This document shows positions 4,871-22,416 of a stretch of DNA of 64,000 nt, piece after piece (positions within the stretch are counted from its first letter, which is position 1; each line of letters begins with the position of its first letter). Location of the stretch: the NCBI GenBank assembly GCA_027532775.1, contig JAPZTO010000003.1, positions 1 to 64,000 of the forward strand. Reading direction: 5' to 3'. The translations under genes were made by a program, and so were the position numbers. The DNA is from Beijerinckiaceae bacterium (lineage in GTDB: Bacteria; Pseudomonadota; Alphaproteobacteria; Rhizobiales; Beijerinckiaceae). The notes under the pieces were generated by a model. The model was not told where the DNA came from and ran no database searches. It saw only the letters and a list, made by a program, of their open reading frames with translations.

Positions 4871-6556
4871 ATGCAAGCCGATCTTCTCCAGGCCGGGCTA
4901 TATGCCCTCATGCTCCTCGCGCTGGCTGTCCCGCTCGGATGGTTTATGGCAAGGGTCTTCACCGGGGAGGTGCGGTTCCTCGCGCCCCTTGAACACGTGA
5001 TCCTTGGCGCAGCCGGCGACCGACGCGAGCAGGGCTGGAAGGCCTATGCGTCCTCGCTTCTTCTTTTCAACGCCGCCGGCTTTTCGCTTCTCTTTGGTAT
5101 CCTGCTGTTCCAGCACCGCCTTCCGATCAATCCGCAGGGCTTCGACGGGCTTTCCTGGCATCTCGCGATCAACACCGCGATTTCCTTCGTCACCAATACC
5201 AACTGGCAGAGCTATGGCGGCGAGACGACGCTCTCGCATTTCAGCCAGATGGCCGGGCTGACGACGCAGAATTTCCTCTCCGCCGCCTCCGGCATGGCCG
5301 TGGCCGTGGCTGTCGCACGCGGGTTTGCCGCCCGGCAGGCGAAGCATCTCGGTAATTTCTGGACCGACATGACCCGCGCGACGCTCTACATCCTGCTGCC
5401 GGGGGCGATCACGCTGGCTATTCTCTTCCTCGCCTTGGGTATGCCGCAGACGCTTTTCGCCTCGGTCGACGTGACGACGCTCGAAGGCGGCAAGCAGACC
5501 CTTTCGTTGGGGCCGGTGGCCTCGCAGATCGCGATCAAGCAGCTCGGCACCAATGGTGGCGGCTTCTTCAACGTGAACTCGGCGCATCCGTTCGAGAACC
5601 CCACGGCCATCACCAACTTCCTCTCAATGCTGGCGATCCTCGCGATCCCCGCCGCGTTCACGTTCACCTATGGGCGGATGGTGAATGATCCGCGCCAGGG
5701 CCGCGCGCTGTTCGTGGCGATGGGTCTGCTGCTCGTTGCGGCTTTCGCGGCAATGTATGCCGCCGAGCGCTTCGGCAACCCGTTGCATGCCGCCTATGCC
5801 GATCCCGCGGCCGGGAACATGGAAGGCAAGGAGGTGCGTTTCGGCCTCGTCAATTCGGTGCTCTGGGCCGTGACCACTACCGCCGCTTCGAACGGCTCGG
5901 TGAATGCGATGCATGACAGCCTCACGCCGCTCGGTGGCCTCATCGCGATGCTCAACATCCAGCTCGGCGAGATTGTCTATGGTGGCGTGGGCGTGGGCCT
6001 CACCGGCATGCTGCTCTTCGTGATCATCACGGTGTTCCTCGCCGGACTGATGGTAGGTCGCACACCGGAATATCTCGGCAAGAAGATCGAGGCACGCGAG
6101 GTAAAACTTGCCGCACTCACGCTTCTTGTCATGCCTATCGGCGTGCTGGTCTTCGGCGCCCTCGCGATTGCCACCGGCACTGCGCAGTCCAGTGTGCAGG
6201 ATGCCGGCCCGCATGGCCTTTCGGAGCTGATCTATGCGTACAGCTCCGCGACCGGGAACAACGGCTCGGCCTTTGCCGGCTTCACTGCGAACACAGCATT
6301 CCACAACACGATGCTCGGCCTCGCAATGCTGCTCGGGCGGTTCGGCTACATCATTCCGATCCTTGCGATTGCCGGTTCGCTCGCAGCGAAGACACCGGCG
6401 GCTGCGACCGCTGGCACCTTCCCGACCCACGGGCCGGTTTTCGTCACCCTTCTCATCCTCACCATCCTGATCGTCGGAGCGCTAACCTTCCTGCCCGTGC
6501 TCGCTTTGGGCCCCATCGCCGAGCATGTCTCGGTGCTGTTCGGCCGGACCTTCTGA
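4871..6556 (+). CDS. kdpA: Potassium-transporting ATPase subunit A (KdpA)
   Basis: 561 aa, the normal length. K+-selective channel-like subunit of the high-affinity Kdp pump in the inner membrane. It belongs to the superfamily of K+ transporters with four M1-P-M2 repeats. Selectivity-filter-like stretches are visible: [51 protein letters not shown] and [14 protein letters not shown]. About ten hydrophobic helices are present. The SD gggggcg precedes the ATG. kdpB begins 11 bp after the stop, indicating an operon with translational coupling. Confidence 0.98.
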
Positions 6557-9233: not shown

Positions 9234-11966
9234 ATGCCGACGACTGACCCCGCTCGTCCTACCCCGGAAAGCTTCCTCGATGCCGCCCGCGCCGAGGAAG
9301 CGACTTCGCGTTCCGGGAAGTTGAAGATCTTCCTTGGTGCGTCGCCCGGCGTGGGCAAGACCTTTGCCATGCTTGAAGAAGCGCGGATCCGGGCGCGCGC
9401 GGGCGTGGATGTCGTGGTGGCGCTCGTCGAGACGCATGGCCGCGCGGAAACCGCCGCCTTGCTCGGCGCCTTGGAGCAGGTTCCCCGCCGCCGGATCGAG
9501 TATCGGGGGCAGGTCCTTGAGGAGATGGACCTGGACGCGCTTCTGGCCCGAAAGCCGCGGCTCGCGCTGATCGACGAATTCGCGCACACCAACGCGCCGG
9601 GATCGCGCCACCCGAAGCGGTGGCAGGATGTGATGGAGGTGCTCGATTCGGGCATTGATGTCGTCACCACGCTGAACATCCAGCATATAGAGAGCCTGAA
9701 TGACGCTGTAGCGCAGATCACCGGCATCCGGGTGCAGGAGACGGTGCCCGATGCCGCGCTGGACCGTGCCGACCAGATCGAACTGATTGACCTTCCACCA
9801 GAGGAGCTCATCCAGCGCCTCAAGGACGGGAAGATCTATCTGCACCAGCAGGCCGGCCGTGCTCTCGAGAACTTCTTCACGAAGGGCAAGCTGACCGCCT
9901 TGCGGGAGATGGCCTTGCGCACGGCGGCAGGCCGGGTCGATGCCGAGATGCTCGACCTCAAGAAGGCGCAGGCCGACCAGACCATCTGGCCAACGGCCGA
10001 GCGATTGCTCGTCTGTGTGAACGAAGCTCCGGTGGGCAAGGCGCTGGTTCGCACCGGCAAGCGCATGGCAGATCGCGCGAAGATTCCTTGGATTGTCGCG
10101 ACCGTCCTCACGCCAAAACATGAGGCGATGGATGCCGACGCACGAGGCGTGACCCAGGATGCGCTTCGACTGGCCGAGACCCTCGGTGCGGAAACCGTGA
10201 CGCTTCGCGCGGAATCGAACGCGGCCGGCGAGATCCTGCGCTTCGCCCGGGAACGCAACGTGACACGGCTCGTGATCGGGCGGCCACGCTGGCGCAACAA
10301 CCTGTTGCAGCGGCTGGTCGGGCTCATCCGCGAGCCCGTTTCCGAGACCCTGCTCGATGAAGCGACGGATTTCGAAATCACAGTTGTCACCCCGCATGTG
10401 AAGATCGAGCGGAGAAAGGCCCTGCTTAGGCGCTCGCTGATCCCGTCGGATTGGCGAGGACCGGTCGCGGCCGTTCTTGCAAGCACGATCGTGACGCTTC
10501 TTGCCTGGCCCATCACGCAGGTCGATGCCATTCCCGCCGGCGCAATCACGGTGCTTTATCTGCTGGGCGTGATGCTGGTGGCCTATCGCTTCGGGCTGGC
10601 GTCATCGCTGCTGGCAAGCGTCACGGGGTTTCTGGGCTACAACTTCTTCTACACGGAGCCCTATCTCACCCTGTCGGTCACCAAATCATCCGACATTGTC
10701 TCGTTGACCGTCTTCCTCATGGGAGCACTCTTCACGGGTACACTTGCGAGCCGGTTGAAGGCGCAGGTGGAGACCATGCGTGCGGCGCAGGCCCGGACCG
10801 AGACTCTCTACGATTTTGCCCGCAAGATTGCCTCGGCCACCAAAGCCGATGATGTACTCTGGGCCGCGGTCGCGCATGTCGCGCGGGTCCTGCATGCCGA
10901 CGTGTTGATCCTGACGCCAGACCGACAGGGGCAATTGTACCAGGTGCAAGGTTGGCCGGCCATCGACGAAGAGCTCGATGCGCGCGACCTTGCGGCGGCA
11001 CAATGGGCGTTCGAGAGGGCAGAAGCAGCGGGCTTCGGCACAGATACCCTGCCGAACGCGGCCTGGCAGTTTGTACCGCTCGCCACCGCCGGCCGACCCT
11101 TTGGCACCATGGGTGTTCGTTTTCACGATGCCTCCCGCGCGAAGGACCCGGAAACGAAACGCCTGCTGCTCGCTGTGGAGGATCAGGTGGCGGTGGCCGT
11201 GGAGCGTAACCGGCTTTCGGAGGAGGTCGCCAATGCGCGTGTGACCGCCGAGAGTGACAAGCTGCGCGCCGCTCTTCTCAATGCTGTCAGCCATGACCTC
11301 CGCACGCCGCTCGTCACCGTGATCGGCGCGACCTCCAGCCTTGCGGACGATTCCAGCAGCCTGACGGAGGAGGCGCGGCGGATGCTCGCCTCGAGCGCCC
11401 ACGAGGAAGCACGGCGGCTCGACCGCACTGTACAGAACCTGCTGGACATGACCCGACTCGGCCATGGCGCGCTGAAACCCAATCGTGCGGCGATCGACCT
11501 GCGGGAAATCATCGGCCGGGTGCGCAACGATCTCGGTCGCGTCCTCAATGCCCACAGCCTCGTGATCGATATCGCCCCGAACCTGCCACCGCTCGATGTG
11601 GATCCGGTGCTGATCGGGCAGGCTCTGGCGAATGTGCTGGAGAATGCGACCAAGTACGCCCCGGCCAATTCCGTCATCCGGGTCACGGCCCGCTCCGAGG
11701 GGCCAAACGCCACGATTTGCATCGCGGATGAAGGGCCGGGCATTCCGGCAGGAGACCGCGACAGGGTGTTCGATCTCTTCTATCGCGCGGCACAGGGCGA
11801 TGGAGCGCCGGCGGGAACGGGAATGGGGCTTGCCATCGTCAAGGGTCTCGTGGAAGCCCATGGAGGAAGTGTGTGCGCGGAAGCCGGGCCGCAGGGTCGC
11901 GGTACGGCCATTCGGCTCAGGCTTCCCCTTGCGACATTGCCACCCTTGGAGAGATCCGGCGCATGA
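9234..11966 (+). CDS. kdpD: Osmosensitive K+ channel histidine kinase KdpD
   Basis: 910 aa, usual length. Membrane sensor kinase that activates KdpE when K+ is limiting. Domains in order are the cytosolic KdpD domain with Walker A GASPGVGKT (residues 35-43) and FAHTNAPGSRHPKRWQDV, and a USP-like domain (about 250-370, starting ERLLVCVNEAP). Four closely spaced transmembrane helices follow (about 400-500), then a GAF-type domain. The kinase core has H687 in NAVSHDLRTPL, N-box ANVLENATKYAP, DEGPGIP and a GTGMGLAIVKG G-box. Its stop overlaps the kdpE start by 4 bp (ATGA). Confidence 0.98.
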   Translation: MPTTDPARPTPESFLDAARAEEATSRSGKLKIFLGASPGVGKTFAMLEEARIRARAGVDVVVALVETHGRAETAALLGALEQVPRRRIEYRGQVLEEMDLDALLARKPRLALIDEFAHTNAPGSRHPKRWQDVMEVLDSGIDVVTTLNIQHIESLNDAVAQITGIRVQETVPDAALDRADQIELIDLPPEELIQRLKDGKIYLHQQAGRALENFFTKGKLTALREMALRTAAGRVDAEMLDLKKAQADQTIWPTAERLLVCVNEAPVGKALVRTGKRMADRAKIPWIVATVLTPKHEAMDADARGVTQDALRLAETLGAETVTLRAESNAAGEILRFARERNVTRLVIGRPRWRNNLLQRLVGLIREPVSETLLDEATDFEITVVTPHVKIERRKALLRRSLIPSDWRGPVAAVLASTIVTLLAWPITQVDAIPAGAITVLYLLGVMLVAYRFGLASSLLASVTGFLGYNFFYTEPYLTLSVTKSSDIVSLTVFLMGALFTGTLASRLKAQVETMRAAQARTETLYDFARKIASATKADDVLWAAVAHVARVLHADVLILTPDRQGQLYQVQGWPAIDEELDARDLAAAQWAFERAEAAGFGTDTLPNAAWQFVPLATAGRPFGTMGVRFHDASRAKDPETKRLLLAVEDQVAVAVERNRLSEEVANARVTAESDKLRAALLNAVSHDLRTPLVTVIGATSSLADDSSSLTEEARRMLASSAHEEARRLDRTVQNLLDMTRLGHGALKPNRAAIDLREIIGRVRNDLGRVLNAHSLVIDIAPNLPPLDVDPVLIGQALANVLENATKYAPANSVIRVTARSEGPNATICIADEGPGIPAGDRDRVFDLFYRAAQGDGAPAGTGMGLAIVKGLVEAHGGSVCAEAGPQGRGTAIRLRLPLATLPPLERSGA

Positions 11967-12649
11967 GCCAACCTCGCATCCTGATCATCGAGGATGAAGC
12001 GCCGATCCGCCGCTTCCTTGCGATTGCGCTGGGTGCAGGCGGCTTCGAGGTGATCGAGGCAGAGCGGGGACGGGCAGGAATCGAACGCGCGGCGATCGAA
12101 TCCCCCGATGCGATCCTGCTCGATCTTGGCCTGCCGGATATCGACGGCAAGGTCGTGATCGCCGGCATCCGCGAATGGTCGCAAGTGCCGATCCTCGTGC
12201 TCTCGGTGCGGGATGGAGAGGCCGAAAAGATTGCCGCACTGGACGCCGGTGCGGATGACTACGTCACGAAACCCTTCGCCACGGGCGAACTTCTTGCGCG
12301 TCTTCGCGCTGCACTCCGAAAGCGCCCGACAGGGACGGCCGAAAAGGCGGAACTCGCATTGGGCGCTCTGGAGATCAACCTCGCGACACGGATGGTGCGT
12401 GTCGAGGGCGTGGAAGCAAAACTCACACGTAAGGAATTCGACGTTCTGGCGCTCCTTGCGCGTCATGCCGGGCGGCTGGTGGGGCATCGCCAGCTTCTCA
12501 CGACCATCTGGGGCCCGGCCCATGCCGAAGATACGCATTATCTGCGCATCGCCATCGGGCATATCCGTGAAAAGATCGGCGATGACGCCGCCGATCCGCG
12601 TTTCATCCTCACCGAACCAGGAGTGGGCTATCGGTTGCTGGATGGCTGA
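11963..12649 (+). CDS. kdpE: KDP operon response regulator KdpE
   Basis: 228 aa, OmpR/PhoB family. Receiver domain (residues 1-115) has acidic pocket ED at 10-11, phospho-acceptor D54 (ILLDLGLPD) and K in YVTKPF. The C-terminal winged helix (about 130-228) has LTRKEFDVLALLARHAGRLV and RIAIGHIREKIG. The start is the ATG overlapping the kdpD stop. A longer in-frame extension begins inside kdpD and is rejected, because this ATG gives the canonical N-terminus SQPRILIIEDE. When phosphorylated by KdpD it should activate kdpFABC. Candidate operator at 4676-4692. Confidence 0.97.
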   Translation: MSQPRILIIEDEAPIRRFLAIALGAGGFEVIEAERGRAGIERAAIESPDAILLDLGLPDIDGKVVIAGIREWSQVPILVLSVRDGEAEKIAALDAGADDYVTKPFATGELLARLRAALRKRPTGTAEKAELALGALEINLATRMVRVEGVEAKLTRKEFDVLALLARHAGRLVGHRQLLTTIWGPAHAEDTHYLRIAIGHIREKIGDDAADPRFILTEPGVGYRLLDG

Positions 12650-12887: not shown

Positions 12888-14129
12888 CTAGAATACCCCA
12901 ATCCGGCGCGCGATATCGATAGCCAACATGCCGCTGCTGGTCACCACACCTGCGACAGGAACCCAGAACGGGCAGTCGAAGATGTCGGGCGGCGGGCTTG
13001 TTTCCCGCCCCTTGATCACGATTAGCGCTAGATTGACGAGCACGAAGATCAGCAAGGTGCCAATGGATGCGAGGTCAGCGAGACCCGACAGCGGAACAGC
13101 CAAGGCGAGCCCCAAGATGCCAGCGACGGCCATCAGGGTGGCGAAAACCGGGGCACGGGTCTTCTGGTCGACCTGCGCAAGTCGCTTTGGCAATTGTCCT
13201 CGATCCGCAAGGCCGTAGAGCACCCGCGCGATAATGATCATGTTCACGAGAATGCCATTCAGTGTTGCGGCCACTGCAATCGCACTCATCACACCCAGAG
13301 GCCAGCCGGTGAGCCGTTCGAAGACCAAAGCCAGCGGGGCCGGCGAAGCGGCAAGCTCGGCCGGTGGCACGGCGCTGACCGCAATCAGCACGACGAGCGC
13401 GTAGAGCAATCCAGTCAGGCCGAGGGTGATGAACAGCGCGCGGGGAAGCGTGCGGCGCTGATCCTTCATTTCCTCCGAGATGTTCACGAGATGCTCGAAG
13501 CCAATGAATGCAAAGACGGCGAGCAAGGCCGCCGAGGCAATCCCCGGCCAGGCGGTCGCATCGGCAAGGCCGGGCGCCATGTCGAGGATGGGTGCCACAA
13601 GGTCGAGTGTCAGGAATCCCGCTCCGATGATCATCGCCAGGCCGGCAACCTCGATCATGGTCATCAGGCCGGCGAGGCTTACGGCCTGAAGCGTCGCGCG
13701 TGTGGCAATCGCGCCGAGAAGCAGAATGATCCCGGTCACCAGCACGGGTTTGGGCAGGGGCAGGAAAACGCTGACATAGCCTGCTGCACCGACGGAAATC
13801 GTAGCGGCGGAGATCGCGGAGGTGACGATGCTCAGCAAACCGACCGCCAGCGCCATGCGCTGCCGCCGGAACGCCGCCTCCACATAGGCGGCCTCGCTTG
13901 CGGAGACCGGGATGCGCGTGCCGAGTTCGGCGAAGGTCGCGGCCGAAAACCCCATCACTCCCGCGGCCAGCAGGAAAGCCATCGGCGCATGAACGCCGGC
14001 GCGTCCGGCCGCCAGCCCGACCAGCACATAGATGCCGGCACCGATGGTGATGCCGAGACCATAGAGAACGGAATGGGTGAGACCCAGCGAGCGCGCGAGG
14101 CCTTTTTCCGCCGCTTCAGCTGCGGTCAT
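12888..14129 (-). CDS. APC-superfamily amino acid/polyamine permease
   Basis: 413 aa with about 11-12 hydrophobic helices. Inner-membrane secondary transporter of the amino acid-polyamine-organocation superfamily. The N-terminal block LGLTHSVLYGLGITIGAGIYVLVGLAAGRAG is the TM1 signature of this family (GxGIGAGI-type unwound segment). The TM6-like block AVFAFIGFEHLVNISEEMKDQRRTLPRAL matches the family's conserved F-x-G-x-E plus polar loop. It is somewhat shorter than the usual 440-480 aa. The substrate cannot be read from sequence. The gene is monocistronic and convergent with kdpE. Confidence 0.88.
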   Translation of the reverse strand: MTAAEAAEKGLARSLGLTHSVLYGLGITIGAGIYVLVGLAAGRAGVHAPMAFLLAAGVMGFSAATFAELGTRIPVSASEAAYVEAAFRRQRMALAVGLLSIVTSAISAATISVGAAGYVSVFLPLPKPVLVTGIILLLGAIATRATLQAVSLAGLMTMIEVAGLAMIIGAGFLTLDLVAPILDMAPGLADATAWPGIASAALLAVFAFIGFEHLVNISEEMKDQRRTLPRALFITLGLTGLLYALVVLIAVSAVPPAELAASPAPLALVFERLTGWPLGVMSAIAVAATLNGILVNMIIIARVLYGLADRGQLPKRLAQVDQKTRAPVFATLMAVAGILGLALAVPLSGLADLASIGTLLIFVLVNLALIVIKGRETSPPPDIFDCPFWVPVAGVVTSSGMLAIDIARRIGVF

Positions 14130-14271
14130 TGCACGATTTCAGGACCATGGTGCGCGCCTTTTCGGCTGGTTTGGGGGCTTGCAAGGAACGGTAACGGAAC
14201 GTTTTTCTGCCGGACATCAGCCATGGCATAAGGAACGCACCATCGCCAGCCGGGCGATCTGTCTGCGCCAT

Positions 14272-15162
14272 TCATTCCGCCTCATGGAGCACGATCGCAT
14301 CGATCCCCGACGGGGCAGCAAAACCCTTGGGCGGCCAGACGCCATCGACAAGGATCGCCGTGGCCCAGGCATCTGCCTCCATGCAGGTCGGCGCCAGCAC
14401 AGTAACCGAAATGTGCTTCGATTTGACGGGTGCACCGGTTGAGGGGTCGATCAGGTGCGAAATCAACTGACCACCGACATCCCGGCACTGGCGATAGGTG
14501 CCTGACGTCGCCACGGCCATCTCACGCAACTCGATCACGCCGGAGAGTTCCCGCTTGCCGGCAAGAGGGCGCTCAAGGCCAACCGCCCAGGGCGTGCCAT
14601 CCGCCTTTGGCCCGCCGGCCCGCAATTCACCATCGATGCTGGCAAGCCAATGAGAGAGGCCGGCATCCTTCAGCACGTCACCGAGCCTGTCCACGCCATA
14701 ACCCTTGGCGATGCCCGAGAGATCGAGGCTGAGCGGCCCATGCTTGCGGGCCCGCTGGCCGCGCCGGTCCAGTTCCAGCGTCTGCCGCGTGATGGGCCGC
14801 GGGCCCACAAACGCCGGCGCCTTGTCCGCAAGGGGGCCGAAGCCCCATCTGCCGACCGCTTCGCCAAGACCGATGTCAAATGAACCGTTGGATTGCGCTT
14901 CGATGGCCAGCGCAGTTTCGAGCACGTGGATCAGGCTCTCCGGGAGTTCGATCCATTGATCGACCAAAACGTTGTTGAGCCGTGAGATATCCGAATCCGG
15001 CTTCCAGTTCGACATGACGGCATCGACTTCCGATACAGCCTCATGAAGCTCTCGGCCCAGCGCCTGCACATCCATGGTTGGTTCGGCATAGGCGATGACG
15101 GAATAGCGCGTTCCCATCGTGTTGCCGTTCAGGGCGAGGCGGAGAAGCGGGTCAGTAGACAT
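14272..15162 (-). CDS. apbE: FAD:protein FMN transferase (ApbE family)
   Basis: About 296 aa. ApbE cleaves FAD and attaches FMN through a phosphoester bond to Thr/Ser in target proteins. Family motifs are GTRYSV near the start, SNWKPDSDISRLN, GSFDIGLGEAVGRWGFGP, LDLSGIAKGYGVDRLGD, ASIDGELRAGGPK and the C-terminal SHLIDPSTGAPV followed by ADAWATAILV. I start at the ATG at 15160-15162, giving N-terminus STDPLLRLALNGNTMGTRYS. The longer frame upstream lies inside the preceding gene. Either way no signal peptide or lipobox is visible, although many ApbE proteins act in the periplasm. It overlaps the preceding reductase gene by 11 bp, so the two are one operon. The likely substrate is the DUF2271 protein two genes upstream. 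Confidence 0.93.
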   Translation of the reverse strand: MSTDPLLRLALNGNTMGTRYSVIAYAEPTMDVQALGRELHEAVSEVDAVMSNWKPDSDISRLNNVLVDQWIELPESLIHVLETALAIEAQSNGSFDIGLGEAVGRWGFGPLADKAPAFVGPRPITRQTLELDRRGQRARKHGPLSLDLSGIAKGYGVDRLGDVLKDAGLSHWLASIDGELRAGGPKADGTPWAVGLERPLAGKRELSGVIELREMAVATSGTYRQCRDVGGQLISHLIDPSTGAPVKSKHISVTVLAPTCMEADAWATAILVDGVWPPKGFAAPSGIDAIVLHEAE

Positions 15163-17377
15163 CTTCGACGAGCCTTCCATTCCGGCGCAGGGTGGGGAGA
15201 TCGAGGCCCAGCGGGGCCAGAGCCCCGGACAATGCAAGGCGAACGCCTTCAGCCATGTCGCGCCCGCCGCAGATCAGGATCTGACCGCCAGCGGCGATCT
15301 CGGCGCGAAGTTCGGGCGCATCCAGGGTGATCAGATCCTGGACGTATCCGCCGCCCTTGATTCGCGAGAAAATCGTGCGCAGCCGTGTCAGGCGCCCATT
15401 CGAGCGCGCGTTCTCGAGTTCCGTGCGGAAGAGGAAATCCGAATTCGGATCGCGGCCACCCCAGTAAAGACGTACCGGGTGGCCGGGCCGGGCATTCCGC
15501 ACAAAGCCGACCAGCGGGGCGATACCCGCTCCGGCGCCGATCAGGATCAGCGACGAGGCCTTCGCATCCGGCCGGAAGGCCGGGTTGGGGTGGATTACCG
15601 CCTTAATCTCCTCTCCGGGCAGCAGGCCGTAGAGATAGCCCGAGCAGATTCCGCCCGGCTGATGCCGCACGCAGATTTCCAGAATGCCGCTGCCCGATGC
15701 GGAAGCGATGGAATAGAAACGTGGCCGGGGATCGGAGGGCGGAGAAATCGCCACAAGGTCGCCGGGCTCGAAGCGGGGCATCCAGCCAAGACTTTGCTGG
15801 AGCCGCACCGGCAGAAGCCGGAAACGCGGCACAATCGCGAAACGGAGGATGACCGTCGGCGCCTGCACCTCGGCCCCGTAATCCTCGCGTTCGATCACGC
15901 GGTATCGCTGGACGAAGGGTGTCGCATCATCGAGTCGCAGTTGCAGGGGCAGATCAAGACTAAGGGCCAGTTGTTCGCCCCATTGCAAGAACGCTTCCGC
16001 CGATTGCCGGTCGATCCGTTCGGTTGGGACCGCGAGCGCGAAGCCACGGGCCAGACAGGCCGTTTCAACCTGCTCGGCATAGCCGCAAAACCTCGGAAAC
16101 TGCCGATCACCGAAGCCGACGATCATCACATCGGGCTTCGGACCTTCCCATTCTGCGAGTTTGTCGATGAACCGGTTTGCGGAGGCGGGCGCTTCGCCAT
16201 CCCCCGCCGTTGCCGCGAGGATAACTATCTGCGAAGCCGGAGAACGGGCAGGCAGATCGTTCATCGGGGCAAGGTGGACCCGGCGCCCGGCAGCTGTCAG
16301 CGCCCGGTGCAGCGCCTTCGCAAAGCGCATCGTGGAACCACCCTCCGAGCCAACGAGCAGGAGGATATCCGCCGCACTGGCAGCGGAATTGGCGCGAATG
16401 CGGCCGGAAGCGAAGCGCCGACGCAGGCTGATCATGAGGCCAGTCAGCGCAAGCACGAGCCCGCCGGCAGAATTGATGGCCAGAAGGATCGCGAGCCAGA
16501 GCAGGCCTTCCGCCGTATGGAGTCGATAGGCGATATCCCGCACATGCCAGGCGAGGGAATAGCGATCCTCACGCAGCACCTGCCCCGTCGCAACATCGAC
16601 GAAGCGGATGGCCTCATCCGTGCGGATGACGATCGGGTCGCTCGCATCCGCCGGATCAGGCAGGATGATCTCGCGCAGGTTCGCAAGCGAGAGTGTTGCC
16701 AACCCATCCAGCGTGCTGAGCGGGCGCGGCGCTTCTCCACTTGCGCTGACGAAAACATCCTCGGCTGCGCCATCCGGCAGCATTTCAAACCCGATCAGCG
16801 ACATGTGCAGGCCCGTTACCGAGGACAGGAGCAAGCCTGCAACCGCGATGCGGCCCAGTTCAAGGTGCCAGCGGCGGATGCCTTCGCCCCGAAACGGTAG
16901 GAGCAGGGCTGACCAACCGCCAAATATGCGCTTCAGCATGACAAGCCCGGTCAGGCAGAGGAGCAACATCACGGCGGCCGCGCCTCCGGCGGCAAGCCGC
17001 CCACCATCACCCGAAAGCCAGGCCCGATGCAGGTTCGTGATCATGCGCGAGGTTGGCGAGGCCGTATCGATTGAATTCGCAATGCCGGTCTTCGGGTCCA
17101 CGAGAACCGAGCGCGGGCGCCCTTGCGCAAGATGCGTGACGCGTACCCGCCCCGAAGGTGTCCGGGTAATCTTCTCGACACCGGTGATCTGCGTGGTGAT
17201 TGTCTCGGCAAGATCCGCCAGCGAAATCGTCGCTTCGGCAACCCTTGGGGCCGTGGCGGAATCCAGTGCGGCCTGTCCCGCGAGAATGGCGCCGGTGCCG
17301 GCTGTGATGGCCAGCACCAGTGCGAGAAACAGGCCGGGGAGAGCGTGCCATTGGCGCAGCATCACGGGCTCCATCAC
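15152..17377 (-). CDS. PepSY-transmembrane / flavodoxin / NAD(P)H flavin reductase fusion
   Basis: 741 aa. A PepSY-associated membrane domain has helices at about residues 12-35, 128-148, 173-197 and 291-318. Histidines near these helices (H116, H171, H191, H278, H287) could bind haem. Next is a flavodoxin-like domain (about 338-465: LLLVGSEGGSTMRFAKAL, VGFGDRQFPRFCGYAEQV). A ferredoxin-NADP reductase-type module follows (about 500-741), with FAD motif RFYSIASASG, pyridine-nucleotide motif LIGAGAGIAPLVGFV and C-terminal ICGGRDMAEGV. The family is thought to pass electrons from cytosolic NAD(P)H via FAD and FMN across the membrane to periplasmic acceptors. The substrate here is unknown (ferric complexes or a flavinylated partner). 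An alternative start is M6. It overlaps the DUF2271 gene by 4 bp. Confidence 0.9.
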   Translation of the reverse strand: MMEPVMLRQWHALPGLFLALVLAITAGTGAILAGQAALDSATAPRVAEATISLADLAETITTQITGVEKITRTPSGRVRVTHLAQGRPRSVLVDPKTGIANSIDTASPTSRMITNLHRAWLSGDGGRLAAGGAAAVMLLLCLTGLVMLKRIFGGWSALLLPFRGEGIRRWHLELGRIAVAGLLLSSVTGLHMSLIGFEMLPDGAAEDVFVSASGEAPRPLSTLDGLATLSLANLREIILPDPADASDPIVIRTDEAIRFVDVATGQVLREDRYSLAWHVRDIAYRLHTAEGLLWLAILLAINSAGGLVLALTGLMISLRRRFASGRIRANSAASAADILLLVGSEGGSTMRFAKALHRALTAAGRRVHLAPMNDLPARSPASQIVILAATAGDGEAPASANRFIDKLAEWEGPKPDVMIVGFGDRQFPRFCGYAEQVETACLARGFALAVPTERIDRQSAEAFLQWGEQLALSLDLPLQLRLDDATPFVQRYRVIEREDYGAEVQAPTVILRFAIVPRFRLLPVRLQQSLGWMPRFEPGDLVAISPPSDPRPRFYSIASASGSGILEICVRHQPGGICSGYLYGLLPGEEIKAVIHPNPAFRPDAKASSLILIGAGAGIAPLVGFVRNARPGHPVRLYWGGRDPNSDFLFRTELENARSNGRLTRLRTIFSRIKGGGYVQDLITLDAPELRAEIAAGGQILICGGRDMAEGVRLALSGALAPLGLDLPTLRRNGRLVEDVY

Positions 17378-17835
17378 ATTTCGATGGCGATGGACTTCAC
17401 GTAGCCGCGCCCGGCTGAAGGTTTGCCGATGCTGGCCTTTTCGAGCGTGATCCGCGCATCGGCCGGCACGTCGCTTTCCTTCTCGACGGCGCTGTCGACA
17501 CGGATTTCGAAGCCTGCATCAATCAGGGCATCGGCAATCTCGGCGCTGACGGTGAGGCTGCGGCCGGCACCAACGCTGGCGCCGGTCGTGCCATCGATCC
17601 GCCCGCCGGATTGGCGGAACCAGCCGGAGAGATGCTTGTGATACTTGGCCTTTCCGCCCGCGACATGGATGGTCTGCCGGAGTTTGCCAGCCTTGTCCGT
17701 CACGTAGATCGCGAGATAGGCCCCGTCGCCACCATAGGCGTTCAGCGTGGTCGTGATGCGCACGGGGCGCGCTTCTGCAATGACAGGCAACAGAAGCGGC
17801 AGGGTAAGGGCCAGAGCGAGGATCGGCTTTTTCAT
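17374..17835 (-). CDS. Exported DUF2271 protein with an ApbE-type flavinylation motif
   Basis: 153 aa from the ATG at 17833-17835; the longer frame reaches into the sensor gene. Residues 1-22 form a clear Sec signal peptide (MKKPILALALTLPLLLPVIA, then EARP). The mature part has the DUF2271 pattern (YLAIYVTDKAGKLRQTIHVAG, HLSGWFRQSGG). Residues 81-87 read D-G-T-T-G-A-S, matching the Dxx(S/T)GA(S/T) consensus recognised by ApbE flavin transferases (compare NqrC/RnfG). Ser87 would take the FMN. With apbE in the same operon, it is probably a periplasmic FMN-carrying electron carrier paired with the PepSY reductase. Its promoter region contains one of two matching inverted-repeat operators (17880-17928). 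Confidence 0.85.
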   Translation of the reverse strand: MKKPILALALTLPLLLPVIAEARPVRITTTLNAYGGDGAYLAIYVTDKAGKLRQTIHVAGGKAKYHKHLSGWFRQSGGRIDGTTGASVGAGRSLTVSAEIADALIDAGFEIRVDSAVEKESDVPADARITLEKASIGKPSAGRGYVKSIAIEM

Positions 17836-17879
17836 GGGAGGTCTCCGGTCGATGATGAACCGGAGCCTCGCCCTTGAGA

Positions 17880-17928
17880 CTGACATGCACCTGAAGCGCA
17901 ACGTGATTTTTGTTCAGCTTCGTGTCAG
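17880..17928. promoter_or_regulatory. Inverted-repeat operator upstream of the DUF2271-reductase-apbE operon
   Basis: Arm CTGACATGCACCTGAA (17880-17895), a 17-bp spacer, then the inverted arm at 17913-17928 (CTGACACGAAGCTGAA on the minus strand). The same arms with the same 17-bp spacing recur at 19966-20014. The consensus is CTGACAyNNANCTGAA, in which CTGA itself repeats every 11 bp, as expected for an OmpR-family regulator. It lies 45-93 bp upstream of the DUF2271 ATG and overlaps the stop of the sensor kinase gene. Confidence 0.65.
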
Positions 17929-19256
17929 CGAAGCGGGAATGCCAACCGGATCTCGACGCCCTGGCCACGGTCAGTCGTGGCAGGAGTAAGCGTCCCGCCA
18001 AGTCCCTTGGCGATTGCAGAGATGATGGCCAGGCCGAGGCCGGCGCCCTCGGCGCGCGTGGCGCCACGCTCGAAACGCTGGCAGAGCCGCTGGAATTCCT
18101 CGGTTGCGATAGGCGGCCCGCCATTGACGACAGAAAGGGCGCCATCATCACCGAGCAACACGCGGATGGGCTCCCCCGATGGGCCGTGCTTCAGCGCATT
18201 CTCGACCAGATTGCGCAAGGCGATCGCGAAGATGTCGATATCGACATTCGAGAGGATGGGTTGCTCCGGCAGGACGCATTCGATGCGGCCTGCGCCAGGC
18301 AAGTCGGCGAGAACCAGCGGAAAGATCGTTCGCAGGTCGTGCTCCGCAGCGCTTCTAAGGTTGCCGCCTTCGGCCTTGGCCAATTGCAGCAGTTTTTCCG
18401 TGAGGCGCGCGAGCCGAAGCAAGGCCGCCTCGATATCGGCCGCCCGCGCACGATGGGCGGGATGGTCGAGATCGGCGATCAGCCGCTGCGTTTGTGCCAG
18501 CGCGCCGGCAACGGGGGTTCGCAATTCATGCGCGGCATTGGCCGTGAGGCTCCGCTCGGCTTCCAGCGTACGCCGAAGGCGCTCGAGCAGGAGATTCACC
18601 GCCCGTTCGACCGGATGAATCTCGCTCGGCAAGCCAGCGGCAGCGATGGGCGCAAGATTGCCCTCGCCACGGGAGGCAATCACCGCGCCGAAAGCCGCAA
18701 CCGGCCGGACGCTGCGCGACACCAGCCAGATCGTCGCGCCGATCATGCCCGGCAGCAGCAGAAGAAGCGGCAGGGACAGCACAACAACGCTTTGCCGAAC
18801 CGTGCTTGCGCGATGGCCGGGCCGCTCCATTGCAGTCACGACAATCGACCCGCTGACCGCACTTTCGGTGTAGAAGCGGCTCCCGTTCCAGTTCCGGAAT
18901 CCGGTCACCTCGCCGGGAGGGAAAAGGGCCGGCTCCGCATCATGGGACTGGAGAAGCACGCGGCCGGAGCCATCCCGGACGACATAGGTGATATACTCCT
19001 CGTGCTTGCCGACATCCGGCAGGCGCTGTTCCACCGTGTCATCCGCTTCCCGCGCGAGGATATCCGAATAAGCCAGCGGCAGCACACGCTGCACCACTTC
19101 CTGCATCGCGCTGTCGAAGACCTCGTCGATTTCATGCCGGACGAGGAGGCCAGCCCCGGCCACGGCGACCAGCCAGCCCACGGCAATCGCCAGCCCGAGG
19201 CCCCACAACAGGCGGTTTTGGAGACTGAAGCCGGAAGCAGACGGGGGGGCACGCAT
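17925..19256 (-). CDS. Two-component sensor histidine kinase
   Basis: 443 aa inner-membrane sensor kinase. TM1 (about 20-39), a periplasmic sensor loop of about 115 residues, TM2 (about 157-179) and a HAMP-like linker are followed by the DHp domain with H243 in NAAHELRTPVAGALAQ. The HATPase has N-box LRNLVENALKHGP, VVNGGPPI and GAGLGLAIISAIAKG. The architecture resembles QseC/PmrB-type kinases. The loop has no Cys and only scattered acidic residues, so the signal is unknown. It is 6 bp from the response regulator gene and precedes the DUF2271 operon on the same strand. It most likely controls that flavin electron-transfer locus. Confidence 0.95.
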   Translation of the reverse strand: MRAPPSASGFSLQNRLLWGLGLAIAVGWLVAVAGAGLLVRHEIDEVFDSAMQEVVQRVLPLAYSDILAREADDTVEQRLPDVGKHEEYITYVVRDGSGRVLLQSHDAEPALFPPGEVTGFRNWNGSRFYTESAVSGSIVVTAMERPGHRASTVRQSVVVLSLPLLLLLPGMIGATIWLVSRSVRPVAAFGAVIASRGEGNLAPIAAAGLPSEIHPVERAVNLLLERLRRTLEAERSLTANAAHELRTPVAGALAQTQRLIADLDHPAHRARAADIEAALLRLARLTEKLLQLAKAEGGNLRSAAEHDLRTIFPLVLADLPGAGRIECVLPEQPILSNVDIDIFAIALRNLVENALKHGPSGEPIRVLLGDDGALSVVNGGPPIATEEFQRLCQRFERGATRAEGAGLGLAIISAIAKGLGGTLTPATTDRGQGVEIRLAFPLR

Positions 19257-19262
19257 CGCGGC

Positions 19263-19925
19263 TTACCCTTCCCGCACGAGGCGATACCCAAGGCCACGCT
19301 CGGTCAGGATGCGATCGTGACCGATCTTCTTGCGCAGGCGTGCGACATAAACCTCGATCGTGTTGCTCTCGACCTCGGCATCGAGCGCATAGAGCCGCTC
19401 CTCGATGTCGGTCTTCGAGATAATGCCCGAAGGCCTGCTCAGCAGGGCCTCCAGAACGGCCCATTCGCGGGCGGTGATTGGCAATGCGCGACCGTTTCGG
19501 GTGGCCGAGCGCTCGGCCAGTTGGATTTCGACATCGCCCAGCATGACCCGAGTTGAGGGTTGGCCATTCGCCCGCCGCGTGACCGAACCGATGCGGGCTG
19601 TGAGTTCGGCCAGTTCGAAGGGCTTGACGAGATAATCGTCCGCCCCGGCATTGAGCCCGGAAATCCGGTCGGAAAGCTGGTCGCGTGCCGTCAGGATGAT
19701 GACTGGCGTTGCATCTCCGCCGGCTCGAATACGTTTCAGGAAATCGAGGCCACGCCCATCAGGCAGCATGAGATCGAGAAGGATGAGATTGTAGGTCGCA
19801 ACCGCCCGGCAATCCTCGGCCTCGGCGAGCCGCATCACCCAGTCGACTGCATGTCCTTCAGCCAGCACATGGTCCCGGACCGCGGCTCCGAGCAGGGCAT
19901 CATCTTCGATCAGCAGAACGCGCAT
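19263..19925 (-). CDS. OmpR-family response regulator
   Basis: 220 aa from the ATG at 19923-19925. The receiver domain has EDD at residues 7-9, phospho-acceptor D51 (LILLDLMLPDGRG), T in LTARD and K in YLVKPF. The C-terminal winged helix has ITAREWAVLEALLSRPSGIISKTDIEERLY and EVYVARLRKKIG. It is the first gene of the run RR-HK-DUF2271-reductase-apbE and is divergent from a small PepSY gene across a 129-bp gap that holds a strong inverted repeat. The likely target sites are the two matching operators in this locus. Confidence 0.95.
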   Translation of the reverse strand: MRVLLIEDDALLGAAVRDHVLAEGHAVDWVMRLAEAEDCRAVATYNLILLDLMLPDGRGLDFLKRIRAGGDATPVIILTARDQLSDRISGLNAGADDYLVKPFELAELTARIGSVTRRANGQPSTRVMLGDVEIQLAERSATRNGRALPITAREWAVLEALLSRPSGIISKTDIEERLYALDAEVESNTIEVYVARLRKKIGHDRILTERGLGYRLVREG

Positions 19926-19965
19926 GACGCCCCCTTCGAGCACCAGCCGCGAGTAATGCACCAAG

Positions 19966-20014
19966 CTGACATCAATCTGAATGTGTTTCTTCGCAGCATT
20001 CAGGTCGATGTCAG
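19966..20014. promoter_or_regulatory. Inverted-repeat operator in the divergent RR/PepSY promoter
   Basis: Arm CTGACATCAATCTGAA (19966-19981), 17-bp spacer, inverted arm 19999-20014 (CTGACATCGACCTGAA on the minus strand). The arms differ at only 2 of 16 positions, and the symmetry extends two further bases into the spacer on each side. It lies between the response regulator (ends upstream at 19925) and the small PepSY gene (ATG at 20055). This suggests autoregulation plus control of the PepSY gene. Confidence 0.72.
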
Positions 20015-20054
20015 ATTGACCGGGCATGCCTTTCTCCAGGACAAGGGGAATGCC

Positions 20055-20330
20055 ATGAGCACAATCCGTTTTCTCGTGCTGTCGGGAAGCCTGCTGGCTC
20101 TCGCAGGCCCGGCTGCGGCCAGTCCCCGGTGCAAGGCGCCACTCGATACATGGCAACCGCGCGAGGCATTGGAGAAAAAGCTCCGGGACGAAGGCTGGCA
20201 GATCCGCCGGATCAAGACCGATGATGGCTGCTACAAGGTGGAAGGCGTGCGTGCGGATGGACAGCGCGTGAAAGCGACCTTCCAGCCTGATACGCTGATG
20301 CTGATCCGCGAAAAGACACGCGACGACTGA
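20055..20330 (+). CDS. Small exported PepSY-domain protein
   Basis: 91 aa. A signal peptide (MSTIRFLVLSGSLLALAGP, AAAS) is followed by one PepSY-like unit: REALEKKLRDEGWQIRRIKTDDGCYKVEGVRADGQRVKATFQPDTLML. This type of small periplasmic PepSY protein is commonly encoded next to two-component systems and is thought to act in the periplasm, possibly on the sensor. The ATG at 20055 is preceded by aagggg. The upstream frame extension runs through the operator and is rejected. It has Cys residues in the mature part (RCKAP, DDGCYK) that could form a disulphide. It is divergent from the response regulator. Confidence 0.85.
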   Translation: MSTIRFLVLSGSLLALAGPAAASPRCKAPLDTWQPREALEKKLRDEGWQIRRIKTDDGCYKVEGVRADGQRVKATFQPDTLMLIREKTRDD

Positions 20331-20382
20331 TCTCGCTCTCGCTTTGTGACCGATGCCCCTCGGGAAACAGAAGGGAAGACCC

Positions 20383-21078
20383 ATGCACCCGCTTCATCGC
20401 GAAACCCATCTCGTTGCCCGGATCGGCTGGTTGCGGGCGGCCGTGCTCGGCGCCAATGACGGCATCATTTCCACCGCGAGTCTGGTCGCCGGCGTCGCTG
20501 CGGCGGCAAAGTCTCCAAGCGAAATTCTCGTCGCCGGCGTCGCAGGTCTTGTTGCGGGTGCGATGTCTATGGCAGCAGGGGAATATGTGTCCGTTGCCTC
20601 CCAGGCCGACACCGAAGCCGCCGATGCCGCGCGCGAGCGACGCGAACTGGCTGAGCAGCCGGAGGCAGAGCTGGCCGAACTGGCGGGGATCTATGTCGCG
20701 CGCGGTGTTGAACCGGCCTTGGCCCATCAGGTCGCAGTGCAGATGATGGCGAAAGATGCCTTCGGTGCCCATGCCCGCGACGAGCTTGGCTTTTCCGAGC
20801 ATGGCTCCGCACGACCCATTCAGGCCGCCCTCACCTCGGCCGTGACTTTTGCTGCCGGTGCCGCCATCCCGCTGGTGATCGCCGCGATCTCGCCCGCGCA
20901 GGAGCTGGCGATAATCGTCTCGGGAAGTTCCCTGCTGTGCCTTGCCATTTTGGGTGCGGTGGGCGCCAGGATCGGCGGCGCACCAGCTTTGAAGCCGGCC
21001 GTGCGGGTCACCTTCTGGGGCGCAATCGCAATGGGCATCACCGCTGCAATCGGCGCGGTGACCGGACAGGTGCTTTAG
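20383..21078 (+). CDS. VIT1/CCC1-family iron/manganese transporter
   Basis: 231 aa from the ATG at 20383 (SD aaggga). Membrane protein of the vacuolar iron transporter family, which moves Fe2+/Mn2+ out of the cytosol. The N-terminus has WLRAAVLGANDGIISTASLVAGV and AGAMSMAAGEYVSVASQADTEAADAARERREL, the two family signatures. An acidic/polar cytosolic metal-binding region follows (about 85-140). Three more helices follow (TFAAGAAIPLVIAAI, AIIVSGSSLLCLAILGAVGA, FWGAIAMGITAAIGAVTG). It lies 52 bp after the PepSY gene and may be co-transcribed. This suggests that the neighbouring electron-transfer locus also deals with metals. Confidence 0.92.
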   Translation: MHPLHRETHLVARIGWLRAAVLGANDGIISTASLVAGVAAAAKSPSEILVAGVAGLVAGAMSMAAGEYVSVASQADTEAADAARERRELAEQPEAELAELAGIYVARGVEPALAHQVAVQMMAKDAFGAHARDELGFSEHGSARPIQAALTSAVTFAAGAAIPLVIAAISPAQELAIIVSGSSLLCLAILGAVGARIGGAPALKPAVRVTFWGAIAMGITAAIGAVTGQVL

Positions 21079-21289
21079 GCCGGAATTGCTTCACGGTGCT
21101 TCCGGATGACCGGTTTTGGCAATTTGACGAGAGCAGCTGAAAGACTGGATTGGGGGGGCGAGGCTCAGGAAGCAAGCGTTGCAGCTCTTGCTGTTCGTCG
21201 TCATGACGACCCGACCCCACCCATCCCGACGACCGTCGTGGAATATCACCAGCTTCCACAAAAGAGGACCTTGGCAACGGTTCTAATGA

Positions 21290-21379
21290 TGGCGGACAGG
21301 GAGGGATTCGAACCCTCGATAGAGTTGCCCCTATACACGCGTTCCAGGCGTGCGCCTTCAACCACTCGGCCACCTGTCC
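21290..21379 (-). tRNA. tRNA-Ser(GGA)
   Basis: 90 nt with CCA encoded. The acceptor stem GGACAGG pairs with CCTGTCC, followed by G-CCA. The D arm is GGCCGAGTGGTTGAAGGC. The anticodon stem CACGC/GCGTG carries the loop CTGGAAC, so the anticodon is GGA (reads UCC/UCU). There is a long class II variable arm, and a T arm GAGGG-TTCGAAT-CCCTC. The first 29 nt are repeated twice upstream in tandem (see the repeat entry). Confidence 0.97.
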
Positions 21380-21597
21380 ACACGCACGCCGGGAAGGCGC
21401 ACGCAATTTCCCTTGCTTCGGACGCGATGCCCTTGGGCATCGCTGGTGCGCCTTCAACCACTCGGCCACCTGTCCACACGTACGCCGGGAAGGCGCACGC
21501 AATTTCCCTTGCTTCGGACGCGATGCCCTTGGGCATCGCTGGTGCGCCTTCAACCACTCGGCCACCTGTCCACACGCACGCCGGGAAGGCGCACGCA
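21351..21597 (-). repeat. 96-bp tandem repeat carrying truncated tRNA-Ser 5' halves and a hairpin
   Basis: Period exactly 96 bp, about 2.6 copies (starts 21351, 21447, 21543), nearly identical (one C/T difference at 21481). Read on the minus strand, each unit is leader, the first 29 nt of tRNA-Ser (acceptor 5' strand, whole D arm, start of anticodon stem), then CCA and a perfect 9-bp hairpin GCGATGCCC-AA-GGGCATCGC (21424-21443 and 21520-21539), then a linker. The last unit runs into the intact tRNA instead. The tRNA fragments are at 21447-21475 and 21543-21571. Unit boundaries follow the tRNA sequence, so this is a duplication of the tRNA start with its leader. Confidence 0.93.
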
Positions 21598-21759
21598 TCA
21601 CGTCGCAGGGCGACGCAAGCCCGGCCTTATGGCGGGGTGCGGCGGAAAATGCAAGGCTCGCGAGGCATCTGCTCGCGATGGTTTCACGTTTGGTTGACAG
21701 GGGTTGCACGGCTGCGTGCGCGGCCCCAGCTTGGAACGAGCCAGCGAAAGGGAAATCCG

Positions 21760-22416
21760 ATGTTTTTCCGCAAGAAGTCCGAAATGCCGAGCGCCGCCAC
21801 CGCCTTGCCGGGGCGTGAGGCGCCGATCGCCACGGCCAGCCGGCACCATGTGCTGGGGCAGCCGCTGAAAGGTCCGTATCCGGAAGGGCTGGAAACAGCC
21901 ATTTTCGGGCTGGGCTGCTTCTGGGGGGCGGAACGCAAGTTCTGGCAACTCGGTGCCGGCATCTGGACAACCGCGGCCGGCTATTCCGCAGGCTACACCC
22001 CGAATCCGACCTATGAGGAAGTCTGTTCCGGCCTGACCGGTCACAACGAGGTTGTTCTCGTGGTCCATGATCCGGCGCAGGTCAGCTACGAGATGCTGCT
22101 GAAGACATTCTGGGAGAATCACGATCCGACCCAGGGCATGCGGCAGGGCAACGATATCGGCACGCAATACCGTTCCGGGATCTATGTCACCACGCCGACC
22201 CAGCGGCAGGTGGCGGAGGCCTCGCTTGCCGCCTTCCAGACAGCTTTGGAAGCCCGCGGTTACGGCCGGATCACGACCGAGATCCGCGAGGCTGGGCCGT
22301 TCTATTTCGCCGAGGAATACCACCAGCAATACCTGGCCAAGAACCCGGCCGGCTATTGCGGCCTCGGGGGCACCGGCGTTTCCTGCCCGATCGGACTGGC
22401 AAAAGCCGCGGGGTGA
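21760..22416 (+). CDS. msrA: Peptide-methionine (S)-S-oxide reductase MsrA
   Basis: 218 aa from the ATG at 21760. Repairs oxidised methionine in proteins using thioredoxin. The catalytic motif is GCFWG with C53. Others are the family blocks [50 protein letters not shown] and YHQQYL, and a C-terminal Cys pair (GYCGLG, VSCP) for recycling. A much longer in-frame extension starting at 21106 runs through the tRNA repeat and is rejected. SD gaaaggga. About 40 residues precede the core. No signal peptide, so cytosolic. Confidence 0.97.

Follow-up and report, generated by a model that had tools for sequence, protein, structure and literature searches.

A conserved mirrored four-half-site element, a candidate operator of a PmrA/QseB-like response regulator, at a flavin electron-transfer locus of a Beijerinckiaceae bacterium

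The first 64,000 nt of contig JAPZTO010000003.1 of a Beijerinckiaceae bacterium (the window, by which we mean this whole stretch) contain two 49-bp elements of the form CTGAC-N6-CTGAA-N17-TTCAG-N6-GTCAG. Element 1 (17880-17928; arms 17880-17895 plus and 17913-17928 minus) is upstream of an operon for a DUF2271 protein, a PepSY_TM reductase and an ApbE-family flavin transferase; element 2 (19966-20014; arms 19966-19981 plus and 19999-20014 minus) is in the divergent promoter of an OmpR-family response regulator and a small PepSY gene. Two matching elements of this size are not chance. Conservation of the mirrored element extends to many members of the order, to other parts of the class and to some Pseudomonadota beyond it. 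Both within the order and outside it, the presence of the element goes with that of the regulator, rather than with that of DUF2271. From the element and its geometry, its conservation, the -10 position and the constraint on its arms, all read from sequence, we consider it likely that each element is a mirrored four-half-site operator of the adjacent response regulator, which would bind as two opposed tandem dimers and activate a local autoregulated regulon.

An earlier sequence-only reading of the window had described four 16-bp arms in two inverted pairs, with 17 bp between the arms of each pair and CTGA recurring every 11 bp within each arm. All of this was reproduced. Exactly four places in the window fit the arm pattern CTGACAYNNANCTGAA without mismatch, each of them where that reading had put an arm, and no further match occurs in the 64,000 nt even with two mismatches; shuffled windows (n = 100) gave a mean of 1.13 matches at up to two mismatches, and 2 of the 100 reached four. 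The spacer is 17 bp in both elements and the 11-bp recurrence of CTGA is seen in every arm. Half-sites start at positions 1, 12, 34 and 45 of the element, that is, at 11 times 0, 1, 3 and 4, which puts all of them on roughly the same face of the DNA, and the layout is that of two tandem pairs face to face with one helical turn left empty between them. The two pairs have none of their 22 constrained positions mismatched, and the best pair in 300 Markov-1 simulated windows with the dinucleotide make-up of the real one had five mismatches. When other spacings from 0 to 40 were tried on the real window, the best pair had four.

In the 3.80-Mb host genome the exact arm with a free N5 occurs five times, four of them within the two elements. 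A genome-wide scan for paired inverted arms, which had been suggested as a check, returned these two elements and nothing else at up to three mismatches. The fifth exact arm lies inside a 693-codon open frame and has no partner in the paired-arm search. We do not claim additional regulon members from lone arms: that arm and 25 of 28 one-mismatch arms are inside stop-free frames of at least 217 codons (25 of the 28 came with loci, the other three without), though frames of such length are common in G+C-rich DNA. A one-mismatch arm of the same genome, CTGTCGCGAACCTGAC at L181 1450-1465, is possibly the box of another OmpR-type regulator: a match to such a protein starts 35 bp beyond the end of the arm.

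Conservation was examined in two samples, in which many sequences are related, so that counts are not independent. The first comprised 25 loci in addition to that of the window, from relatives at each rank from genus up to phylum, chosen solely by their DUF2271 protein and matched with one mismatch allowed per arm. An inward-facing arm pair was present at 24 of the 25 loci, at exactly 17 bp in 22, and no outward-facing pair was seen in any; the regulator is absent from L130, the only one of the 25 to lack a pair. The sample excludes L153-L155, whose DUF2271 matches are weak (E 4.6e-4 to 7.8e-4) and which were read as 3-kb loci, none of them with a pair. Counting the two of the window there are 44 inward pairs, of which 38 are spaced by 17 bp and the others by 18 (two), 6, 9, 37 and 53 bp. 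Natural spacing variants with the same arms occur at L172 4162-4202 (9 bp) and L178 3592-3660 (37 bp). Loss of both palindromes in close relatives that keep the locus, which the sequence-only reading had named as the outcome to fear, was not seen: DUF2271 is present in 5 of 16 other same-genus genomes searched, and all five loci (L123-L127) keep both palindromes at 17 bp.

The second sample was blind to genes. A search for the motif at up to three mismatches in 397 genomes of the order, the host's own included, found a match in 79 genomes, at 102 places in total. Places beside a homologue of the regulator, the small PepSY protein or DUF2271 numbered 26/26 with no mismatch, 19/19 with one, 16/18 with two and 20/39 with three. 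At least one such on-locus place was found in 61 of the 79 genomes, two of which (G275 and G371) are doubtful, having a three-mismatch site beside a partial regulator match. A control with the pattern written backwards matched in 10 genomes, once each, against 21 off-locus places, most of which are therefore chance-like. The two-mismatch off-locus places, L087 and L088, are near-identical sequences in two genomes.

Presence of the element can be set against presence of each gene. The element stands beside the regulator, with no DUF2271 within about 11 kb, at 11 loci (L104, L107, L108, L110, L111, L112, L114, L146, L244, L245 and L247); for L244, L245 and L247 this was read from 11-kb stretches, G269 was excluded because it has DUF2271, and G275 and G371 were excluded as doubtful. 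The genome of L112 has DUF2271 elsewhere (L113). Conversely, at L047/L130, L051 and L052 there are reductase or DUF2271 homologues, no regulator was found nearby, and the element was not found; L050 is also without a pair, and is uninformative because its contig starts inside the reductase gene. Most loci without the regulator are likewise without the element, the exceptions being L176 and L177. Control by the response regulator of itself, the PepSY gene and the electron-transfer operon, as proposed from the window alone, thus gains comparative support.

Among 64 regulator loci, the PepSY2 gene is present in 50 and a VIT1-family gene in 12, the window included. At L103 and L105 a second PepSY2 gene with VIT lies about 10 kb from the regulator and has its own element, which argues that PepSY-VIT is a genuine target; a third PepSY2 gene with its own element is found at L106 and L150. 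The VIT1 gene is probably a regulon member. The regulon first proposed can be drawn more sharply, the regulator probably being an activator, the palindrome presumably one unit of four half-sites, and VIT1 probably included.

The element keeps a narrow range of distances to the genes beside it. Median distances from its edge to the start codon are 43 bp for the regulator, 50.5 bp for PepSY and 50 bp for DUF2271. When a -10 hexamer was scored at each offset from 0 to 59 outside the element, the top offset was exactly 10 bp for each of the three genes. At the 33 divergent PepSY/regulator sites the peak at offset 10 is on both sides (3.97 and 3.42, against means of 1.73 and 1.72), and at seven regulator-only sites it is again on both. 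At the 18 one-way DUF2271 sites the gene side peaks at offset 10 (4.11), whereas the distal side scores 0.72 there, under the distal mean of 1.41. A fixed distance from box to -10, as in OmpR-family activator promoters, where the box takes the place of the -35, is seen in the two largest site classes; the same 10-bp distance is found at E. coli phoA. In the window this offset gives putative -10 hexamers, weak by sequence, for DUF2271 (GAGGCT, 17864-17869, minus, outside element 1), for the response regulator (TACTCG, 19950-19955, minus, outside element 2) and for the PepSY gene (CATGCC, 20025-20030, plus, outside element 2). A fixed 10-bp gap to a degenerate -10, in the absence of a consensus sigma-70 promoter, is the layout of an activator-dependent promoter, and the regulator is probably an activator of these genes.

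At the same 18 one-way DUF2271 sites mismatches average 0.39 in the near arm, and the far arm is free of them in 18/18. The near arm is the worse in six sites and the far arm in none (sign test, n = 17, the duplicate site of L105 left out, p = 0.03; a modest test on related sequences). An arm that stays intact with no visible promoter beside it is presumably retained because it contributes to binding; a complex of four subunits would explain this better than two boxes acting separately. The -10 peak at 10 bp on the gene sides and the intact promoterless arm are new here.

In 11 of 34 DUF2271 rows the DUF2271 start is 425-449 bp from the element, which leaves room for a further gene. In the one row inspected, L092, a small frame (5068-5421, minus) lies between element and DUF2271; its product begins like a signal peptide (MKKILLL...), is rich in Asp, Arg and His, and has no Pfam match up to E 1. 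It is possibly a metal-binding extra member of the regulon.

The likely binder is encoded at 19263-19925 (minus). It has receiver (PF00072) and winged-helix effector (PF00486) domains and belongs to the PmrA/QseB subgroup of the OmpR/PhoB family, with the phospho-acceptor Asp, D51, in 63 of 64 regulators and a gap in the other; its closest solved structures are those of BasR/PmrA (8jo2 and 4s04). Best NCBIfam models are PmrA and QseB for the regulator and QseC and PmrB for the kinase, all scoring below their cut-offs and those for the regulator far below (205.8 bits for the PmrA equivalog NF007928, cut-off 330); we therefore call the pair PmrA/QseB-like and not PmrA. Numbering positions by a gap-free alignment to PmrA, whose base-facing residues are described in PMC4660055, we find S187, N188, V192, R196 and R210 invariant in 64/64 regulators, the window's included. 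Position 196 is Asn in PmrA, which reads CTTAA, and Arg in all 64 regulators here, which go with CTGAM. PhoB Arg201 reads a guanine (PMC3973317), and by analogy Arg 196 may read the new G of the half-site.

Binding, the tetramer, activation, feedback and the iron signal are what we infer, as follows. Phosphorylated regulator would bind as two head-to-tail tandem dimers, one per arm, facing each other across the empty turn. The gene-side arm would stand in for the -35 box, with the poor -10 hexamer 10 bp beyond it, and on this proposal binding of the regulator activates transcription. Element 2 would be a single symmetric operator driving two divergent promoters, for regulator-kinase and PepSY-VIT1, and the outward arm of element 1 would activate DUF2271-reductase-ApbE, its promoterless far arm being retained because it helps to load the whole unit. 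Feedback of the small PepSY protein on the kinase is possible, on the pattern of DbfQ and DbfS. The outcome would be a small regulon confined to this locus, under positive autoregulation and serving flavin-based electron transfer across the membrane. The regulator probably switches on its own gene, those of its periplasmic modulator and the VIT1 transporter, and the operon for electron export. The company of these genes suggests that the pathway is probably tied to iron, with iron or a related metal the likeliest signal. A bolder version, which we put a little short of an even chance, is that these elements form a distinct class of OmpR-family operator, in which opposed tandem boxes function solely as a four-subunit unit. 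The far arm, having no promoter, would then act as an obligatory lock and restrict the regulon to two sites at one locus, and a PepSY sensor module would be wired to flavin electron export and VIT1 transport.

The same protein could instead act as a repressor, the element covering the -35 region and blocking polymerase until a signal removes the regulator. The position of the element, where a -35 is expected and a median 43-50.5 bp from the start codon, would suit this. We consider it unlikely in view of the fixed 10-bp gap to a degenerate -10 in the large site classes, the lack of a consensus sigma-70 promoter, and the case of BqsR, whose pentamer-N6-pentamer site likewise may overlap the -35 and which is an activator (PMC4682146). 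No more probable is that the arms are independent, each an activation box, with the mirror due to divergent promoters and element 1 a duplicated copy. Such boxes would account for element 2 and for the 33 divergent sites, which have a -10 on either side. They would not account for the one-way DUF2271 sites, whose far side lacks a -10 signal and yet keeps its arm intact in 18/18, although the near arm has picked up mismatches.

A different regulator of the genome might use the sites, such as the paralogue L182, which carries SNTIEVFVGRLRKK in a recognition helix nearly identical to the regulator's; the element at L176 and L177, with no adjacent regulator, would then be less surprising. However, even at loci that lack DUF2271 the element is found with the adjacent regulator, and the surroundings of L182 have no exact arm and no pair, just two one-mismatch arms, so that we rate this lower than either of the foregoing. 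Least probable by far, and rejected here, is that the palindromes are RNA hairpins, as terminator or leader, rather than protein-binding DNA. Element 2 does fold well (-24.5 kcal/mol, z -6.8), but element 1 folds no better than its shuffles (z -0.8), and across 87 elements the positions between half-sites pair across the arms about as often (0.40) as with shuffled partners (0.38), so that the compensatory changes expected of a hairpin are not seen. Neither element has a terminator-like site, and Rfam at gathering thresholds found only a tRNA in 14000-21800.

Several observations weigh against our preferred reading of an activating operator of the adjacent regulator. The nearly identical recognition helix of L182 has just been mentioned, as has the element before DUF2271 without an adjacent regulator at L176 and L177, for whose genomes many regulator paralogues were found. 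At the four PepSY-only sites the gene side peaks at 10 and the distal side is also raised (3.25), and at the six DUF2271/regulator sites offset 10 is high (3.50 and 3.67) and is the top on neither side. The -10 hexamers of the window are weak, and a consensus scan found no sigma-70 promoter. Spacing is not universal: a 17-bp pair is missing at L172 and L178, and L167 and L179 each include a pair with 18 bp between its arms. With 21 off-locus places, roughly double the number in the control, a few could be genuine sites elsewhere; the relatedness of the sequences makes the counts interdependent; and the suggested iron link comes from gene company.

The elements at L176 (5814-5862) and L177 (5007-5055), from the same phylum and outside the class, both precede DUF2271-reductase-ApbE, and each has one outer half-site of the form CTTAA, closer to the PmrA form.

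With its four mirrored half-sites the element is a conserved variant of an operator type already known. The closest described case is BqsR of Pseudomonas aeruginosa, an activator whose operator TTAAG-N6-TTAAG is, like the half of each element here, a pentamer pair with a 6-bp spacer and an 11-bp period, the downstream pentamer of which may overlap the -35 (PMC4682146), and whose kinase BqsS is adjoined by a PepSY gene (PMC12714742). The pentamer here is KTCAG/CTGAM and not TTAAG, two pairs face each other across 17 bp with the far pair kept, and there are two sites in the genome for this regulator against hundreds of candidate sites for BqsR. The PmrA/BasR box, CTTAAT-N5-CCTAAG, belonging to the closest solved regulator, is also tandem head-to-tail with an 11-bp period (PMC3973317), and such direct half-sites, as CTGAC-N6-CTGAA, are found in every window arm. 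It differs in the third base of the half-site (G here, T there), in Asn at regulator position 196 (Arg in 64/64 here), and in that no mirrored second box is described in the accounts of it consulted. In 87 distinct elements, which were selected for layout and CTGAM with one mismatch allowed, the third base is G at 0.92-0.97 and T at 0.03-0.07, which is not (C)TTAA(G), and all eight half-sites of the window have G. The half-site reads as a G-type relative of the PmrA/BqsR box, the mirrored layout being the variant part.

Operators of the AgrR/CopR type also combine inverted and direct repeats in the OmpR family: an inverted repeat of 6-4-6 form is flanked by direct repeats that lie on the same face of the helix, also at divergent operons (PMC7380067). 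There the inverted hexamers are 4 bp apart and the outer repeats optional, while here four pentamers are arranged about a 17-bp gap (38/44 inward pairs have 17 bp between arms, and none has 4). In DbfQRS a small periplasmic PepSY protein, DbfQ, can bind and restrain the kinase DbfS, and opposite-strand arrangements are reported (PMC12714742). The window likewise has a small PepSY gene beside kinase and regulator; in contrast to DbfQRS, the PepSY protein is of the PF13670 (PepSY_2) kind and the module is joined to a flavin electron-transfer operon. Caulobacter UzcR (CATTAC-N6-TTAA; PMC8963506) was considered as a counterpart and set aside, the N6 layout being shared and the half-site different.

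Flavinylated PepSY/DUF2271 systems have been found by genome mining in thousands of genomes (PMC8238504). The clusters with PepSY-like proteins, DUF2271 and ApbE have PepSY_TM with an NAD-binding domain, DUF2271 with [S/T]GA[S/T] and, in some, VIT1; electron transfer from cytosol to a flavinylated periplasmic protein is proposed for them, and they are linked with iron reduction and VIT1 (same source). The window locus has PepSY_TM, DUF2271 with this motif, and ApbE. A Caulobacter PepSY/DUF2271/ApbE cluster is reported to be controlled by Fur (PMC3751524, PMC12004947), in contrast to the predicted two-component control with its own operator here. Among the matches listed from the open-licence literature, none described this operator or reported DUF2271 clusters under the control of a two-component system. 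Our analysis offers a candidate regulator and operator for a large group of these systems, and joins VIT1 and the small PepSY protein to them in one predicted circuit, which narrows the signal that may drive periplasmic electron export. The sites are also a natural case for the study of how OmpR-family regulators come to very high site specificity, since in the one-way sites no part is better preserved than the far arm, the one without a promoter; if the bolder version is true, that arm yields a two-site local regulon in a multi-megabase genome.

Within the locus, element 2 was confirmed to lie in the divergent promoter, 40 bp from each of the two start codons, that of the regulator at 19925 (minus) and that of the PepSY gene at 20055 (plus), and so exactly midway between them. 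The other pair is upstream of DUF2271-reductase-apbE as had been said, element 1 ending 44 bp before the DUF2271 start codon (17835, minus). The sensor histidine kinase gene (17925-19256, minus; PF00512 and PF02518; QseC/PmrB-like) has its stop codon TGA (17925-17927, minus) inside an outer half-site CTGAC of element 1, so that the end of the coding sequence and the operator share bases; this overlap recurs in 16 of the 87 distinct elements. A stretch of the kinase resembles ExxE (E42 0.92 and E45 0.73 conserved). We take it to recall the iron motif of PmrB, though it may be general in this group of kinases, and do not use it as evidence.

The small secreted-type PepSY_2 protein (20055-20330, plus; PF13670; 91 aa), divergent from the regulator, has two Cys that are invariant in 50 aligned sequences. 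The gene directly after it encodes a VIT1-family transporter (20383-21078, plus, start 20353 or 20383; PF01988); this gene and the kinase stop inside element 1 are additions to the sequence-only reading. On the other side of the locus are the genes for the DUF2271 protein (17374-17835, minus; PF10029), a predicted ApbE substrate with a TGAS motif at residues 84-87 (T84 conserved at 0.95 and G85, A86 and S87 at 1.00 in 58 aligned sequences), for the PepSY_TM/flavodoxin/NAD(P)H-binding reductase (15152-17377, minus; PF03929, PF00258 and PF00175), and for the ApbE-family flavin transferase (14272-15237, minus; PF02424).

Two further features of the window were seen. Open reading frames at 9234-12649 encode a large sensor kinase followed by an OmpR-type regulator, a pair that presumably resembles KdpD-KdpE. 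At 21350-21597 a 96-bp unit is repeated in 2.6 tandem copies with 98% matches, adjoining and overlapping a tRNA-Ser(GGA) gene (21290-21379, minus), and each unit includes one end of that gene with flanking sequence.

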